From Opitutia bacterium (GTDB lineage Bacteria; Verrucomicrobiota; Verrucomicrobiia; Opitutales; T3Sed10-336): a stretch of DNA of 52,504 nucleotides. Shown here piece after piece: positions 12,086 to 26,298 of the stretch. The notes under the pieces are model-generated. The model saw only the letters and a list, made by a program, of their open reading frames with translations. It made no database searches and was not told the DNA's origin. The stretch covers positions 1 to 52,504 of the forward strand of contig PWMU01000075.1 of the NCBI GenBank assembly GCA_003558065.1. The letters run 5' to 3'. The translations under genes and the position numbers were made by a program. Position 1 is the stretch's first letter. The number at the start of each line of letters is the position of its first letter.

Positions 12086-14749
12086 ATGAAACTCAATCGC
12101 AACCTCTGTTTTTCCGCGGCCTTTCTCATGCTGACCCTGCCGGGATTTCTGGGCGCCCAGCGTCTGGAGCCCGTTCTGTATGAGAAGTGGGAGGACGGGG
12201 ATCGTTCAAATCAGGCACTGCCTGAGTCGGCTGCCTGGTACTCATCGCAGGCCGGGAGCACGCTCCAGGCAGGTCACGGGAAAATGCGGCAGGAGCTTGC
12301 CGATTCAGCCATGACGATTGCCTGCTTCACCGATCCCGGCAAAACGGTGGAACTGGCTGTGGGGCATACCCTGCGGCTGGTCTATACCGTGTCGTTTCAT
12401 GATCGGAAAGATTCCGCCTTTTTCAGGATCGGGCTTTACGATACCTCCGGCCAGGACCGCGTTTCGAGCGACGCCATCGGGTATGGCAATGTGGCTTTCG
12501 AAGGGGGGCGCGGTTATATGGTGAACCTGGGCGGGCTCGACGCCGGAGATAGCGTGGATCTCCGCCGCCGGCGGACGGTAGCGGCCAGGGCCGGTCTCAT
12601 GAATACGACGGAACATTACTGGACCGCCGACGGTTCCGAGACCTCGCTTGGAGAAACGCTTTCCGACGATGTCCCTTATACGGGAACCTTTGAAATCATG
12701 CGGCTGGACCAGGACTCCGTCCGGGTGACGGCCTCGATGAGGGGGCCTGATGGGACCGTTTTTCAGACCCCTCCCTATGTGGACCGTTCGGACACCCTGC
12801 ATTTTGCTTTTGATACCGTTGGCTTCATGTCCGGGGCCGGCAATGGAGATGCCTTTACCCTCCATTCGGTCGCCGTCGGGGCGAGTCCCGAGGCGGCGGC
12901 CGGCATGGCCGTCACGTCCGCCGCCGGCGAAGAAGACTTCCCTGAAGTCGCACCGGTGGATTTGAATGAGATGTCGCCCGATCCGTTTTCGGACAAGGAT
13001 TTCAGGACCGGATGGATGACTCCGCAACCGCTTCCGTATTACCTGTACCACTTCGCGGCAGTGGCCAACAGCGTTGTGACCCATGGCGACCATCGCGGCT
13101 GGATCAACCGGCGCATCTGGCGATCCGCGGGGGAGTTTCGGAATCGGGATCCGCGCGTTATGGAGAGTGTTCTTTCCCTGACGTACTTTTACACCCGGGC
13201 CGAGCCGTGGAATCCCTATCATGGCGATCCCGCGCTGCGGAAACGCCTTGAGGCGGCGCTCCGGTACTACATCGATAGTCTCGGCGAGAACGGCCTGATG
13301 GAGCCGGCGACCCCCGATCAGCACGTGGGGTTCCGGCTCGCGAACACGATGTTTTTCACCAAGTTCATGGGGGAGACCCTGGTTCTGCTCCGTGACGGCC
13401 CGGCTATAGACGAGGAGCTTCATGCCGATCTGCTGGAGGCCCAGCGCCGCGCGCTGAAGTACGTTTTCACCTCGGACCTCGCCTTTATCCAGGGACGACA
13501 ATTCAGCAACCAATACGGCAATGTCTTTGGCGGCGCTTACGCTTACCTGTACCTGCAGGACGATCCCGGGATCGAGCGACTTCTGGAGCGCTCGATCGAT
13601 GAAGTCGTTCCCCATTTTCAAAGTCCGGCGGGTTATCTCTATGAAAACCACTCCGCGGATTTCGGTTATTCCCTGGGAACCCACCACAGTAATCTTCAAG
13701 CTGCCTGGCACTACGCCCAACTGGCCGGGAGAGATACGGCGTGGCTGGAGAAGGAGACCGAACATTGGGCGGATTGGTTGAGCTATAATGCCGTGCCCGA
13801 TCCCGATTTTTCCGAATTCACTCTCAACCGGGCCATCGAGTCCCGCCAGAATCGGTGGGGCTTTACCCGGGCCAACGCCCCGTTCGCCGAGCACGTTCCC
13901 GCCCTCCGCGCTTTCGTCGCTTCCAGGGATGAAGTCCGCGAAGAAGAAGAGCGAAGTCGTGCTGATCTGACGGACTCCTGGCCTCGGGTGGAGGCGCTGG
14001 GCAGCGGCTTTAACAGTTTCAGTCCCTACGCTTTTCTCCACCGGCACCATTTCGAGTGGTACCCGAGCGAGGCTGAACGGGAGTCGGCGCGACAGGAATT
14101 GCCCTATTTTGCCCGGGACCGGTTCGTTCACCAACGGGTGGACGACCGCCTGCCAATGGAAGTGACCTTCGTGAACCGTTCCGGTTACTACGCCGCCTTC
14201 AACGCCGGCGAACAGAGAAGCAGGGTGCAGACTTTCGGTCTGGGCCTGCTGTGGCATCCCGAGGCGGGTGCGGCCCTGCAAAGCCAGACCCGCATGGCGG
14301 AAGCCGCCTGGGGGGTGGTGCTCGAAGGCGGGGATCGGGTGGCCGAAGCCGACGGGGCCCTGAAGGTGCGCTACTACCTCGACGGCGAGGAGATTTCCCC
14401 GAAATCGGGTGCCAACGATCTCCCGGATGGGGATCTGGAGATCCATTACCGGCTCGGCGACAGGGGAGAGAAATTCCTGCGCTTCGAAGACGAACGGATT
14501 CTCGTGGCGGTGAATCCGGGCGGCGAATTCATCGAACAGATCCCGTTTCTCATCGATTCCTCAACCGAGCCGGTGGTGGACGGGGAATCCATCCGGATCC
14601 CGCGCGGCGAGCGGGAACTCGTCATCAGGCCGGAAGGGCAGATCGATCAGTCGATTAGCTTGACCGATAGGAACGTCGGAGACAGCACGGTCGGGGTGGT
14701 CAATCTCAAGGGCTTTCGTCGCTTCACCTACACGCTGCAATTCGAGTAA
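12086..14749 (+). CDS. Large secreted protein: jelly-roll plus alpha/alpha-toroid, putative polysaccharide lyase or hydrolase
   Basis: Predicted exported protein of 887 residues; signal peptide MKLNRNLCFSAAFLMLTLPGFLGA. Residues 25-290 form a beta-sandwich of a type common in Verrucomicrobia (LYEKWEDGDRSNQALPESAA WYSS at its start). Residues about 310-620 are helix-rich with repeating aromatic/acidic patterns, as in the alpha/alpha toroids of polysaccharide lyases and unsaturated glucuronyl hydrolases (YFYTRAEPWNPYHGDPALRK, QYGNVFGGAYAYLYL, YENHSADFGYSLGTHHSNLQ). The C-terminal 270 residues are beta-rich. The conserved His, Tyr and Asn in the middle are compatible with a lyase, but I cannot assign a family. 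The same start motif occurs in the orphan fragment at 25783-25965. Confidence 0.7.
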   Translation: MKLNRNLCFSAAFLMLTLPGFLGAQRLEPVLYEKWEDGDRSNQALPESAAWYSSQAGSTLQAGHGKMRQELADSAMTIACFTDPGKTVELAVGHTLRLVYTVSFHDRKDSAFFRIGLYDTSGQDRVSSDAIGYGNVAFEGGRGYMVNLGGLDAGDSVDLRRRRTVAARAGLMNTTEHYWTADGSETSLGETLSDDVPYTGTFEIMRLDQDSVRVTASMRGPDGTVFQTPPYVDRSDTLHFAFDTVGFMSGAGNGDAFTLHSVAVGASPEAAAGMAVTSAAGEEDFPEVAPVDLNEMSPDPFSDKDFRTGWMTPQPLPYYLYHFAAVANSVVTHGDHRGWINRRIWRSAGEFRNRDPRVMESVLSLTYFYTRAEPWNPYHGDPALRKRLEAALRYYIDSLGENGLMEPATPDQHVGFRLANTMFFTKFMGETLVLLRDGPAIDEELHADLLEAQRRALKYVFTSDLAFIQGRQFSNQYGNVFGGAYAYLYLQDDPGIERLLERSIDEVVPHFQSPAGYLYENHSADFGYSLGTHHSNLQAAWHYAQLAGRDTAWLEKETEHWADWLSYNAVPDPDFSEFTLNRAIESRQNRWGFTRANAPFAEHVPALRAFVASRDEVREEEERSRADLTDSWPRVEALGSGFNSFSPYAFLHRHHFEWYPSEAERESARQELPYFARDRFVHQRVDDRLPMEVTFVNRSGYYAAFNAGEQRSRVQTFGLGLLWHPEAGAALQSQTRMAEAAWGVVLEGGDRVAEADGALKVRYYLDGEEISPKSGANDLPDGDLEIHYRLGDRGEKFLRFEDERILVAVNPGGEFIEQIPFLIDSSTEPVVDGESIRIPRGERELVIRPEGQIDQSISLTDRNVGDSTVGVVNLKGFRRFTYTLQFE

Positions 14750-14803
14750 CCGCGGGCACACGTGTTCACCCATCCGTTCCCGCTTTTCCGCGGGTCGTTT
14801 ACC

Positions 14804-15901
14804 ATGAAATCTTCGAACCTTTACCGAAACCCGGCGGTGGCGTCCGATGCTCCCTCCGAAAAACGAATCCTTGTTATCTCCTGCCTGATGCTTATTGTGC
14901 TCGGAATCATGTGGGGCACCAAGCCGGCCGGTGGGGCTGATGCGTTGAAGGACTGGGAATACGTGGAGCCGAGCAGCGAGTTTTATTTTGAAGTTCAACG
15001 CTTCGAAGCCAATCCCGTCATTCATTCACGGATGCACGGGCTGGTAGGGGACGATGGCAAAAACATCAACGGCCCGTCGCTGATCCGCGTGCCGGAGTGG
15101 ATCGAGGATCCGTTGGGCAGGTATTACCTGTATTTTGCTCACCATCACGGTGATTTCATCCGGCTGGCCTATGCGGACTCGCTTGAAGGACCGTGGAAAA
15201 TTCATCACGGCGGCGTGTTGCCGCTGGAGGAGACTCCGAGTTACGACGGGGTTCGTAGGGATCACGTTGCCAGCCCCGATGTGCATGTCGACCACGAAGA
15301 GAAACGTATCCGCATGTATTACCATGCCGATCCGCGGCCGGGCACGGACACTCAGTATCAGGCAACCTACGTCGCGGTTTCCGGAGATGGACTCGATTTT
15401 GACCCGCTCGAGGAAATTCTCGGGATGTTTTACTTCCGTGTCTTCGAGCGCGACGGATGGCACTACGCGCTGGCGAAGTACATCAACGACGGGGGTGTGA
15501 TCTACCGCTCGCGGGATCCGTTATCCGGCTTTGAGGAAGGGCCGCGGATTCTGCCCCGGGTTCGTCACATGGCATTGTGGGAGCACGACGACGTGCTTTA
15601 CGTGTTCTTTTCACGCGGGGAGGACAAGCCCGAACACCTGATGGTTTCGCGCGTCGAGAACCTCGATGACGACTGGGAGGACTGGACCTTTACGGAGCCG
15701 CAGACAGTTTTGAAGCCGGAGAAGGATTATGAAGGAGTCAACGCGCCGATCGAACGTTCCCGTTTCGGCGCAACCTACGATTTCGTGCACCAATTGAGGG
15801 ATCCGGCGATCTACGAGGAGGACGGCCGGGTGTATCTCCTATATTCGGCGGCGGGGGAATCGTCCATCGCGATCGCCGAACTGTTTTTCAAGGGAGACTG
15901 A
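14804..15901 (+). CDS. Secreted/anchored GH43-like five-bladed propeller protein
   Basis: About 365 residues. A hydrophobic helix at about 24-41 (ILVISCLMLIVLGIMW) acts as a signal anchor or signal peptide. The rest resembles the five-bladed propeller of GH43/GH32/GH130-like glycosidases: NGPSLIRVPEWIEDPLGRYY, YFAHHHGDFIRLAYADSLEG, ASPDVHVDHEEKRIRMYYH and RDPAIYEEDGRVYLLYSAAG each read as one blade. I prefer the ATG at 14804 to a GTG at 14762. The stop lies inside the 3' end of the convergent carboxypeptidase gene (14-bp tail-to-tail overlap). Substrate is unknown; arabinan, xylan or related glycans are usual for the fold. Confidence 0.75.
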   Translation: MKSSNLYRNPAVASDAPSEKRILVISCLMLIVLGIMWGTKPAGGADALKDWEYVEPSSEFYFEVQRFEANPVIHSRMHGLVGDDGKNINGPSLIRVPEWIEDPLGRYYLYFAHHHGDFIRLAYADSLEGPWKIHHGGVLPLEETPSYDGVRRDHVASPDVHVDHEEKRIRMYYHADPRPGTDTQYQATYVAVSGDGLDFDPLEEILGMFYFRVFERDGWHYALAKYINDGGVIYRSRDPLSGFEEGPRILPRVRHMALWEHDDVLYVFFSRGEDKPEHLMVSRVENLDDDWEDWTFTEPQTVLKPEKDYEGVNAPIERSRFGATYDFVHQLRDPAIYEEDGRVYLLYSAAGESSIAIAELFFKGD

Positions 15902-18700: not shown

Positions 18701-21700
18701 CTATTGCGCGCCTCCCATTCGAATGCGCGGATCGACCCACATCAACAGCAGGTCGCTCACGAGAGTTCCGAAAACAGTGAGCAGGCTGAGCACCATCAGC
18801 ATCGATCCCGCCAGGTACATATCCTGGGTCATCAAGGCACTCAGAAGCAGGGGCCCTACGGTCGGGAGACTCAGGACGATCGCCACGATGGCTCCCCCGG
18901 AAATGAGCTGGGGAAAAATCTGGCCGATGCCCGAAATGAAGGGATTGAGCGCCAGGCGGACCGGATACTTGAACAGGAGTTTCATGGGACGGACCCCTTT
19001 TGCCCGGGCGGTCACTACGTAAGGCTTGCGCAGTTCGTCGAGCAGGTTGCCCCGCATTACGCGGATCATCCAGGCGGTGCCGGCGGTGCCGATCACTACG
19101 ACCGGAACCCAGATGTGTTGGAGCAGGTCGACGAATTTGCCCCAGGTCCACTCGGGCTGGGCGGCGTACTCCGGCGAGAACAGACCGCTGACCTGGGCGT
19201 CGAACAGGGCGGCGCTGATGTACATGAGGATCAGCGCGAGCAGAAAATTCGGGATACACATCCCGATGAAACCGATCAGCGTAAAAACGTAGTCCCCGAT
19301 CGAATACTGGCGTACCGCGGAATAGATGCCAATGGGGATAGCCATGGCCCAGGTGAAAATGACCGTGAAGAGCGAGATCACAAAAGTCAGAAGAATCCTG
19401 TCCCCGACCACGTCGTTCACCGGCCGCGAGTCCTCCATTGACCGTCCCAGACTCCCCTGTAGCAGGCCCCGGTCGCCGGCGTCGAAGGTTGCGAACCACG
19501 GCAATCCCAGCCAGCGCAGGTACCGCAGGCTCATGGGATCCTCCAGGTGGAAAAGTTCTTCCAGCTCCCGGATTTCCTGAATCGCCCCCAGGTCGCCTTC
19601 CATCTCCAGCTCAATGATCCGGGCCTCGATGAAATCTCCCGGAGGGAGCTGGATGATAATGAACGTGACCAGTGAAATCACGAACAGGGTGGGAACCAGG
19701 ATGAGGCACCGGCGGCCGATGAACGGATGGCGTACGGCTACCAGCAGCCCGCCAAGCAGGAGAATGCCGTAGATCAGGTAACGCACCATCGATCCGACCG
19801 CTTCGCCCACTCGCGATTCCTCCTCGTCGACCTGCCGCCCGTTGTCGAGGGTCAGGCTTGGATCGGGCCGGATTTCCACCATGGCCCGCTTCATTTGGGC
19901 GATGGCTCCCGGGGAATCATAGGGTGTCTCGAAGAAGTAGTTCTCGATTCCCGCATTGGAAGGAGTATTGAAAATGTGCCCGACGCTCGCCTTGCGCGGA
20001 ACATTCCGGAACCCCTTCTGCACAATCACCAGATCAGGGGGCGGAGTACTGATATTGATGCTCCAGAGATTGTCGGCCGCGATCTCAAGGGCCTCGTTGA
20101 AGATACTGACCTGTTCCTCGAGGTCCTCGACCCCCCGGGCTTCATCGAGGATTTCCATCGATCGCCGGAACGGGTGGTCCGCGGGCGGTTCGATCGCCAA
20201 CGGCCGCTCGTCGGCTTCGGGATGCCCGTAGAGGCCGCCCAGTTGATACCAGCTCGCAAAGCCCGGAGCAAAGAACGAGTGCAGGGTAACGGGAACGAAA
20301 CTTCGCGGCTCGACCAGCGGATAAAATTCGCTCGCTCCCGACCAGACGGTCAAATCATGCTCCAGGCCGGATTGCAAACGCTGCCACAGGCTGCGCGCCC
20401 GTTCGTGCAGGACCACCCGCACCCCCACTTCCCGCCAGTACGCTGTGAGGAATTCGGAAGGCCCCGTGCCGGTGTAATCCGTGACATTCAGGTTGAAGGC
20501 CATGCGCGTTCCGTCGGGAAACATCCGGTACCCTTCCGCATCGCGCCGGTCCAACCCGATGTCATCCAACAATCCGTTCGCGCGCTCCGGATCGTAGTCG
20601 GTGAAGCTGCCGAACAACCTGGGATTGTGGAATACCGACTCCGGACCGGGATCGATCTGCGCCGGCTCGGTCTGGCCGTCGTATTCGGCCGCGATGATCT
20701 CCTCCCGGTTGATGGCGAGCGAGAGGGCCTGGCGGAATTCCTTCTTGTTCAAATAATCGTGTTTCCACCGTGTTTCCGGGCGGTCGGGATCCACCCGCCG
20801 GTTCAAATTCGGGAAAATGCAGAATATCGATCGGTACGCGGGAAACCAGTGGTAAACGTCGTAATCGTTGCGATCCCGCTGATCCATGTAGAGGGTGTAA
20901 TCATCGTAGTGGATGTGCCGCAGTTGCATCGTGATGTCGCCGGCGGCCGCCGTGACCGAGATCATGTCCTGGGAGCGAAGATCCATCAGAATCCGGTCCA
21001 CGTAAGGCAGCTGGTTCCCCTCCGAATCGACCGCGAAGTAGTAGGGATTGCGCACGAACTCGTACGGCGGCGTTCCCTGGTAGCCGCGCGGAACCCAGGC
21101 CCACATCCGCGGATGCTCCGGATTGCGGTTGCCCTTCAGACGGAAGTAAGCCGCGCGCGGACTCGGCACTCCCTGAACCTCGACCATCGCCTCGATCAAT
21201 CCCGGATCGCCCGCCTCGGGATGAAAAGGTTTCAGGTAATGCTCGGGGGCCCAGAGCGTATGTTTTGCCAGCGCCTCTGCGAACAGCCCGTTGGGATGAG
21301 GGAAGGTGAAACGCACGGTGTATCGGTCGATCTTTTCGATGTCGCCCAGCTCGCCCCGGATGGTCATGTAATGCGGGCGCTGGTCGAAATGCTGAACTTC
21401 CTTTTCCCACCAGTACAGGATGTCGCGCGCGGTAAACGGATGCCCGTCCGACCACTTCACGCCCTCCCGGAGGTAAAGCGTGTACTCCCGGCGGTCGTCG
21501 GAAACTTCCCAATCCTTTGCCAGGTGCGGTCGAATCGGGTAGCCCAGCGGCGACCACCGCAAGAGCTGCCCGCCCGACAGTCGCCACGAAATGATCCCGA
21601 CATCGCCTTCGGAAGTCGCCACACGGTACCAGGTCCCCCCGTACTTTCCGATACCTTCGGGACCTTCCGTCACCGCGGGCTGCGGTCCGACCCGTTCCGC

Positions 21701-22006
21701 CACGGGTGGGAGCCGTCCTTCCTCCACCAACTCCGCCAGGAACGGAGATTCACCTTTTGGATACCACGCCCCGGCTTCCCCTTCGCCGTAGTCCACGTCC
21801 CGGTGCAGTACCGTTACGTCATCCGGGTCGAAGGAGGTGTCGCGGTCCCTTTCCACCGACTCCACCTCTTCAGGATCGTATTCCGGCAGCACGGCGCGAA
21901 TATCGGGCCGCAGGAACGCCCCGAATACATAAAGCAGGGCGACAAGGGACAATCCCGCACCGAGAACCAGCAAAAGATAAATACCAAAACCTTTCAGCCT
22001 GAGCAT
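18701..22006 (-). CDS. ABC transporter fusion: family-5 solute-binding domain plus DppB-like permease
   Basis: A single 1101-residue protein. An N-terminal membrane helix (about 7-32) is followed by a large SBP_bac_5 (peptide/oligosaccharide-binding) domain, roughly 90-700, with family motifs GKYGGTWYR, AKDWEVSDDRREYTLYLREG, GVKWSDGHPFTARDILYWW and a C-terminal INREEIIAAEY-type segment. A second helix at about 735-755 leads into a DppB-type permease (about 760-1101): LILVPTLFVISLVTFIIIQL, PPGDF, LLQGSLGRSMED, and the EAA-like loop region GGAIVAIVLSLPTVGPLLL. Normally these are separate polypeptides. No second permease or ATPase lies in the window, so the rest of the importer must be elsewhere or lost. 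Divergent from the rhamnosidase gene, with about 236 bases between starts. Confidence 0.9.
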   Translation of the reverse strand: MLRLKGFGIYLLLVLGAGLSLVALLYVFGAFLRPDIRAVLPEYDPEEVESVERDRDTSFDPDDVTVLHRDVDYGEGEAGAWYPKGESPFLAELVEEGRLPPVAERVGPQPAVTEGPEGIGKYGGTWYRVATSEGDVGIISWRLSGGQLLRWSPLGYPIRPHLAKDWEVSDDRREYTLYLREGVKWSDGHPFTARDILYWWEKEVQHFDQRPHYMTIRGELGDIEKIDRYTVRFTFPHPNGLFAEALAKHTLWAPEHYLKPFHPEAGDPGLIEAMVEVQGVPSPRAAYFRLKGNRNPEHPRMWAWVPRGYQGTPPYEFVRNPYYFAVDSEGNQLPYVDRILMDLRSQDMISVTAAAGDITMQLRHIHYDDYTLYMDQRDRNDYDVYHWFPAYRSIFCIFPNLNRRVDPDRPETRWKHDYLNKKEFRQALSLAINREEIIAAEYDGQTEPAQIDPGPESVFHNPRLFGSFTDYDPERANGLLDDIGLDRRDAEGYRMFPDGTRMAFNLNVTDYTGTGPSEFLTAYWREVGVRVVLHERARSLWQRLQSGLEHDLTVWSGASEFYPLVEPRSFVPVTLHSFFAPGFASWYQLGGLYGHPEADERPLAIEPPADHPFRRSMEILDEARGVEDLEEQVSIFNEALEIAADNLWSINISTPPPDLVIVQKGFRNVPRKASVGHIFNTPSNAGIENYFFETPYDSPGAIAQMKRAMVEIRPDPSLTLDNGRQVDEEESRVGEAVGSMVRYLIYGILLLGGLLVAVRHPFIGRRCLILVPTLFVISLVTFIIIQLPPGDFIEARIIELEMEGDLGAIQEIRELEELFHLEDPMSLRYLRWLGLPWFATFDAGDRGLLQGSLGRSMEDSRPVNDVVGDRILLTFVISLFTVIFTWAMAIPIGIYSAVRQYSIGDYVFTLIGFIGMCIPNFLLALILMYISAALFDAQVSGLFSPEYAAQPEWTWGKFVDLLQHIWVPVVVIGTAGTAWMIRVMRGNLLDELRKPYVVTARAKGVRPMKLLFKYPVRLALNPFISGIGQIFPQLISGGAIVAIVLSLPTVGPLLLSALMTQDMYLAGSMLMVLSLLTVFGTLVSDLLLMWVDPRIRMGGAQ

Positions 22007-25004: not shown

Positions 25005-25710
25005 TTACGGTTTTTGCGCGAGGAGACCGCGTTCAACGTAGATGGGGCGGGCAATGCGGCGAAGGGTGGGCAATCTCCAGGCGAAAACGAGACCTGCGAG
25101 GCCGCAGACAATGGCGCCGAGGAGGAGAGTGATGGGAGCGCCGATGAGGCCGGCCGCTTTGCCGAAGAGGACGGCGCCCAGGGGCAGGGCGCCCATGAAG
25201 GTCATCCCCATCAGGCTCATGAGGCGGCCGCGCGCCGTGAAAAATGGACGAGTTCAGGGCGATTGCGTTGGACAGTCTGGCCCGGTCGTCGACGATATCA
25301 GCGACCAGGGCCTGGCGGGCCGGCATTTCGAAACCTTTGGCCACGCCGAGGAGAGCGCAGGCGAGAAGGAGGTGCCAGATCCGGACGATCCCGAAGAGGG
25401 TCACTCCGGCCAGGATCAGCATGGTGCTCAGGTTGAGGATCCGGGTGTGAACGATGAGGCGTCGCCGGTCGAGCCGGTCGGTCAACGCTCCTCCGAGAGG
25501 AGCGAGGAAAACGGTGGGAGCGTGCATGAAGAAACCGATCAGCCCCAGTTTAAAGGGATCCCCGGTCAGCCGGAATACCAGCCACCCCATGGCGGCCAGG
25601 GACCTCCAGGTTCCGGTTAGGGCGGCGATCTGGCCGAGGAAAAAGAGGCGGTAGTTCCTGTAGGCAAGGGTGCGGAAGAGATGCCTGAGATTTTGCGTGA
25701 TGGCTGCCAT
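25005..25710 (-). pseudogene. MFS transporter (MFS_3/EntS-like) with internal deletion and frameshift
   Basis: The N-terminal half reads well from the ATG at 25710 (NYRLFFLGQIAALTGTW, GALTDRLDRRRLIVHTRI, GFEMPARQALVADIVDD, LSNAIALNSSIFH). Just after this the frame changes. The C-terminal end of the same family (RLMSLMGMTFMGALPLGAV, IGAPITLLLGA, RRIARPIYVERG) continues in another frame to a TAA at 25005. Intact relatives have roughly 180 more residues between these segments, covering about TM helices 6-10. The joint lies at about 25235-25250, in CACGGCGCGCGG, where both gene ends could share a few bases. The product cannot be a working 12-helix transporter. Confidence 0.85.
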
Positions 25711-25782
25711 TAGTGCTCGGTGTTCGCCGGAGAATGTATCTGCCGCGCATAAAGACAGGGTGGGGCGTTCTTTTTCAGTGCG

Positions 25783-25965
25783 AACGAGGACAACGTTTTC
25801 CGCGGCTATTCCGATTCCCCCGTCGTGATCCTGGACGAAGCATTCAATGACGGCGAGCGCCTGGTTCAGGACCTGCCGCATACGTCGGCCTGGTACGGCT
25901 CGTCGGGAGCTCGGACCCCGACCCTGTCGCAGCCGGCCGACGGAATCATAACGCTCGACGCTTCC
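25783..25965 (+). pseudogene. Fragment of a secreted beta-sandwich protein
   Basis: About 60 codons that resemble the domain start of the large secreted protein at 12086. Here the text is VILDEAFNDGERLVQDLPHT followed by SAWYGSSG; there it is LYEKWEDGDRSNQALPESAA followed by WYSS. The similarity ends at about 25965 and no start codon or preceding domain is recognisable; the frame opens at 25753 after a stop. The sequence continues into a dispersed repeat. I read it as a leftover from a deleted gene; there is no sign it is expressed. Confidence 0.55.
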
Positions 25966-25998
25966 ATTATACTGCACGTCATTAAGTTTTCGGAAAAC

Positions 25999-26046
25999 AC
26001 ACCCCACCAGCCTTGCGGCTGGTTCCCCCCTCTCAAGAGGGGAATG
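25999..26046. repeat. Dispersed intergenic repeat with two hairpins
   Basis: Two tandem hairpins: CCAGCC TTGC GGCTGG (26007-26022) and CCCCTC TCAA GAGGGG (26027-26042), preceded by ACACCCCA. Paired-hairpin elements of this look (a GC-rich hairpin next to CCCCTCTCAAGAGGGG) are, from general experience, common dispersed sequences in many bacterial genomes. Only one copy is visible in this window. It directly follows the gene fragment ending at 25965. The 250 bases from here to the gene at 26299 show nothing else. Confidence 0.6.
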
Positions 26047-26298
26047 AATTTTCATTGCCGAACCCGGAATGCTGAAAGAGAAGTTATTACCCAAGGCAAT
26101 CCACGTGATAAGCTGCTGCGGCAGGGATTCCGGAGGCCGGGGAATAACTGTAATGCGGCTGCCTGAATGGTTCCGGCCGGCGATTGCCGAACGCGCTCTC
26201 GCCCGCTTCGTTTTCCGGATTCCGCTTGCCCGAAGCTTCAGGTGCCCTCACACTCCTTGTCGGTAAACCAGTCTGGCCGGCGGAGAAAAGGGGGGAAG

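Follow-up and report, generated by a model that had tools for sequence, protein, structure and literature searches.

A solute-binding protein fused to a DppB-type permease in an Opitutia bacterium, and a model of its assembly with separate partner subunits

A receptor and a permease in one reading frame

The window analysed here, a stretch of 52,504 nucleotides, carries on its minus strand (18701–22006) a single uninterrupted frame of 1101 codons that joins a solute-binding protein (SBP) to a DppB-type permease. Pfam searches placed an SBP_bac_5 match at residues 158–559 (E = 1e-48), a BPD_transp_1 match at residues 889–1096 (E = 1e-25) and a weak BPD_transp_1_N match at residues 762–876. The open reading frame and domains confirm the original prediction that one 1101-residue chain holds both an SBP_bac_5 domain and a DppB-type permease. 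The features of the gene are as follows.

18701–22006, minus strand: SBP–DppB fusion gene, 1101 amino acids (intact open reading frame; Pfam; omega 0.088 against the paralogue on contig C169)
21911–22003, minus strand: N-terminal transmembrane helix, residues 2–32, N-in by positive charges (hydropathy; AlphaFold2 (AF2) helix at 2–32)
19871–21874, minus strand: cluster-C solute-binding domain, residues about 45–712 (Pfam; AF2 pLDDT mostly 80–97; fold comparison)
19826–19870, minus strand: short flexible linker, residues 713–727 (pLDDT under 50 at 721–735; omega 0.28 over residues 700–762)
19730–19825, minus strand: predicted added transmembrane anchor helix, residues 728–759 (AF2 helix of modest confidence; hydropathy across fusions)
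18704–19723, minus strand: DppB-type permease, residues 762–1101 (BPD_transp_1; NCBIfam Opp/Dpp/Nik B models)
18956–19039, minus strand: EAA-type coupling loop, residues 990–1017, DELRKPYVVTARAKGVRPMKLLFKYPVR (mostly invariant across fusion alignments)

The permease half matches BPD_transp_1 in Pfam and the DppB/OppB/NikB models in NCBIfam, the latter at scores below the curated cut-offs of the named equivalogs, and no specific equivalog was assigned. With its SBP_bac_5 domain and cluster-C fold, the N-terminal half is a cluster-C SBP. The binding protein of Dpp/Opp systems is as a standard a separate chain, whereas here receptor and permease share a single 1101-amino-acid frame. Because the binding protein lies within the same chain, we regard the gene as a variant of Dpp/Opp-type DppB and not as a standard member.

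Predicted topology

We modelled the fusion with AF2 from 28 fusion sequences, as a chain without DppC. The model comprises a helix at residues 2–32, a confident binding domain (about 45–712), a linker that is poorly defined around residues 721–735, a helix at 728–759 and a first DppB helix at 761–786; confidence in the permease half is low (pLDDT 30–70 over most of its length). Hydropathy analysis detected a hydrophobic N-terminal helix in 44 of 45 fusions and a second hydrophobic helix, located in the linker and followed by positive charge, in 42 of 45. The N-terminal membrane helix of the original prediction was thus recovered by both approaches, and its proposal that the binding domain is held at the membrane is supported by predicted helices on both sides of the receptor. 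The simplest topology would have the N terminus inside, one helix leading out, a periplasmic receptor, one helix leading back and then an ordinary N-in DppB, so that the added helix after the binding domain (residues 728–759) would restore the DppB topology.

The fusion is genuine and forms a single clade

Full-length fusions occur in 24 of the 273 genomes of the order, a count in which paralogue numbers are lower bounds. In the genome collection, 27 of the 79 loci retained by a scan were fused; they belong to records of Verrucomicrobiota, Planctomycetota, Lentisphaerota, Spirochaetota and Raymondbacteria, and the fusion is found both in the order and in other phyla. Independent assemblies carrying it include two single-contig genomes (G011 and G041). 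Separate full-length orthologues in close relatives would have pointed to a stop missed through sequencing error; the relatives instead bear the fusion intact. The lone apparent split orthologue, L108, was rejected as such since it reads as a frameshifted fusion. We conclude that the SBP–permease fusion is genuine and not a sequencing error.

In a tree of DppB sequences, all 45 fused rows fell into one clade, with L108 as the sole other row (SH-aLRT 99, branch 0.27). The fused rows also formed one clade in the SBP tree (support 100), whose only non-fused members were L108 and a truncated copy from L078; its sister rows were the separate SBP of contig C167 in the window's genome and two SBPs from Poribacteria and Hydrogenedentota. 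A single clade in both domain trees suggests that the fusion likely had one origin. These were quick trees, built mostly from metagenome-bin records, in which transfer between phyla is indistinguishable from vertical descent. The DppB sequence of one locus (L136) is the same as that in G007, a genome of the window's own family. Genome G021 holds tandem fusions at one locus (L077) and a fusion with the truncated extra copy at another (L078), none with DppC nearby.

An orphan paralogue under constraint

We detected no homologues of DppC, DppD or DppF in the 52-kb window at E ≤ 1e-8. The companion permease and ATPases are thus missing from the 52 kb, as originally noted, yet all three partners of a Dpp/Opp-type importer are encoded elsewhere in the same genome. 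A second fusion (1114 amino acids, 83% identical overall and 93% identical in the DppB part) lies on contig C169; it overlaps dppC, which is followed by dppD, and contig C114 continues with dppF. The overlap between these two contigs (end of L029, start of L084) is 204 bases long and 96% identical, a sign of strain mixture in the assembly. The original prediction overlooked that a complete operon in this genome makes the window gene an orphan paralogue, and that the gene belongs to a broad clade.

Nucleotide homology between the two fusion genes begins about 57 bases into the gene and ends at the stop codon. The C169 fusion ends in an overlapping ATGA for dppC, whereas the window copy ends in TAG and is followed about 90 bases on by an M14 peptidase gene, which has weak Ig-like matches; a search 3′ of the window gene for a dppC remnant found none. 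An assembly join at the window stop codon, where C169 homology stops, is unlikely. The neighbourhood of the window fusion recurs in no relative examined, and scans for promoters and terminators yielded no signal exceeding shuffled background.

Comparison of the two paralogues by the Nei–Gojobori method (dS about 1.2) gave an omega of 0.088 overall, 0.076 for the binding domain, 0.28 for the linker and 0.046 for DppB, with residues 700–762 as the fastest-evolving part tested. An omega of about 0.09 indicates that the window gene is under constraint, and a reading of it as a degenerate copy was rejected on this basis.

Unlinked partner sets point to probable assembly in trans

DppC is encoded downstream of 31 of the 44 assessable fusions, some of which come from one genome via two collections, and the 13 orphans require about five changes on the tree. 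DppC was also present at all 11 further fusion loci. Genome G020, rated 100% complete, has its only detected full-length fusion on one contig (C20) and its only DppC of the class on another (C23), where dppC is followed by dppD and dppF with neither DppB nor SBP. Five further genomes (those of L092, L096, L099, L109 and L116, the last with just 331 bases covered downstream of the fusion) likewise have a lone fusion and, away from it, a single class DppC with DppD and DppF but without DppB or SBP. These unlinked sets suggest that assembly in trans is probably normal for fusions of this kind.

The window's genome encodes two fusions against one DppC of the class, and a reasonable proposal is that the window copy draws on the DppC–DppD–DppF set of C169, although in an assembly of 197 contigs that is 97% complete and shows signs of strain mixture another DppC could be missing. 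Three binding proteins of the same genome are separate chains, each with an N-terminal hydrophobic segment (L030, L032 and L033, on contigs C167, C115 and C43), and only the first of them adjoins DppBCDF, another possible case of sharing. By eye, L033 (G000:C43) also has two tandem LacI-type regulator parts in one frame at positions 1–1644 on the minus strand, a frame that runs off the locus.

Similarity of the binding domain to oligosaccharide binders

The closest sequences to the binding domain are those of 5ipw (named OppA) and the pectin-binding protein SPH1118. A fold comparison covering the binding domain only gave Z scores of 42 for 5ipw, 40 for SPH1118 and 32 for MelB (PDB 6epy; a raffinose/melibiose binder), against about 24 for classical peptide binders (DppA). 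SPH1118 hardly bound peptide mixtures despite its annotation as an oligopeptide binder, and its ligand residues include Arg57, Arg438 and Trp594 (PMC9314435). In a phmmer sequence alignment these residues face W141, Y511 and a His of the window fusion, while the equivalents of SPH1118 Arg466 and Arg496 are retained; a pectin substrate is thus unsupported by the alignment.

In some relatives the neighbours of the fusion are GH2 enzymes, heparinase-like lyases and a sulfatase accompanied by a TonB receptor, and the C169 fusion has a glucuronyl-esterase-like protein next to it; in other relatives the neighbours are housekeeping genes. From the divergent arrangement of the fusion and a GH78 gene, the original prediction proposed import of rhamnosides or peptides, which our analysis does not support. 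No fusion adjoins the GH78 orthologues of G001 and G002 or the M14 orthologues of G001 and G004, so neither gene is a conserved neighbour in these close relatives and nothing singles out rhamnosides; the binding domain, for its part, is more similar to proteins that bind oligosaccharides than to those that bind peptides. Our best guess is an oligosaccharide. Elsewhere in the window, two genes next to the M14 gene (12086–14749, 887 amino acids; 14762–15901, 379 amino acids) have no Pfam match at E 1e-5, and a gene at 25033–26094 looks truncated or frameshifted, with an MFS match spanning only positions 7–146 of a 524-position profile.

Proposed mechanism and alternatives

We propose that the gene product is one subunit of a Dpp/Opp-type ABC importer, with the receptor and half of the channel in a single chain. 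The chain would start in the cytoplasm and cross the membrane once, its solute-binding domain folding in the periplasm, and would then re-enter the membrane via the added anchor helix and continue as DppB. The fused DppB would pair with a separate DppC, with the ATPases DppD and DppF powering transport, and a single tethered receptor would serve each importer with no need to diffuse to it and dock from solution. The window copy, which may have lost its own dppC or never had one, would most likely use the DppC–DppD–DppF set of C169 and C114 and so serve as an alternative module, receptor plus half-channel, for a substrate that is related but not the same and is probably an oligosaccharide. To what we observed, a conserved fusion that forms a single clade and a window copy under purifying selection without adjacent dppC, this account adds a topology, pairing in trans and a substrate class that we infer; we consider the whole, fused half-channel subunit, trans pairing and oligosaccharide-type substrate together, to be likely.

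Since DppB and DppC are different proteins, one tethered receptor per transporter is expected, unlike in homodimeric OpuA, and a separate DppC in the gene content argues for a heterodimer with one receptor. Of the original claim that the fusion fixes a 1:1 receptor–permease stoichiometry, the fusion itself stands, whereas one receptor per transporter would follow if DppB pairs with a separate DppC.

An artefact of sequencing or assembly might be suspected in a source assembly fragmented into 197 contigs, but recurrence of the fusion in dozens of independent assemblies, the two single-contig genomes among them, has already refuted it and we give it practically no weight. A decaying, functionless relic of a duplicated operon would account for a copy that has no dppC, dppD or dppF and whose homology stops at its stop codon; 1101 codons free of stops and frameshifts despite a dS of about 1.2, with the omega values given above, make a relic very improbable.

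It is unlikely, though the flexible and fast-evolving linker (about residues 711–735) could accommodate it, that the fusion is made as one chain and then cleaved after the binding domain into an ordinary anchored SBP and DppB: separate genes would suffice for that outcome, yet fusion and anchor helix are retained across a wide clade. The position of the orphan next to a glycoside hydrolase gene is compatible with a sensor that signals the presence of substrate in place of a transporter subunit. We judge a sensor to be quite improbable, since constraint is strongest in the DppB half, where the coupling loop is intact, and since in relatives lone fusions accompany single lone DppCDF sets.

Relation to known importers and significance

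DppB, DppC, DppD and DppF together form the heterotetrameric Dpp translocator (PMC12136057). The system described here resembles E. coli DppABCDF (PMC12136057) in its DppB/DppC permeases, DppD/DppF ATPases and cluster-C binding protein, but here the binding protein forms the N-terminal portion of DppB and an anchor helix has been added; in addition, the genome has two fused paralogues, and one class-specific DppC was found. Receptors covalently linked to permeases are known from OpuA, reported to be a homodimer bearing two SBDs (PMC8199443, PMC11065425), in which an anchoring helix and a linker of 11 residues connect the receptor (PMC11065425), and from GlnPQ, whose receptor domains (SBDs) are in tandem (PMC8025302); here the SBP and permease families are others and the receptor sits on one of two different permeases. 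SPH1118 (PMC9314435) and MelB share the binding-domain fold but are separate proteins. In Pseudomonas aeruginosa, DppA1–A5 share one DppBCDF (PMC4206461), likewise several receptors for one translocator, whereas in the system described here the exchanged unit would comprise the receptor together with DppB, not the receptor alone. We found no report of a DppA–DppB-type fusion in the literature searched, most subscription journals being outside its coverage; receptor–permease linkage is thus already known, and a DppB-type permease with a fused receptor is unreported within that literature.

As a tentative extension, on which we would not yet wager, fusions may be exchangeable receptor-plus-half-channel cartridges, with several paralogues in the same cell competing for a shared DppC–DppD–DppF core and each supplying its own specificity along with a single tethered receptor. 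Should the topology prove right, the two-part channel of this importer would bear exactly one tethered receptor, and one could test directly whether a single such receptor is enough and what is gained by tethering compared with free diffusion. Opitutaceae-like genomes with unlinked fusion and DppCDF sets would offer a natural experiment in the assembly of half-channels in trans.
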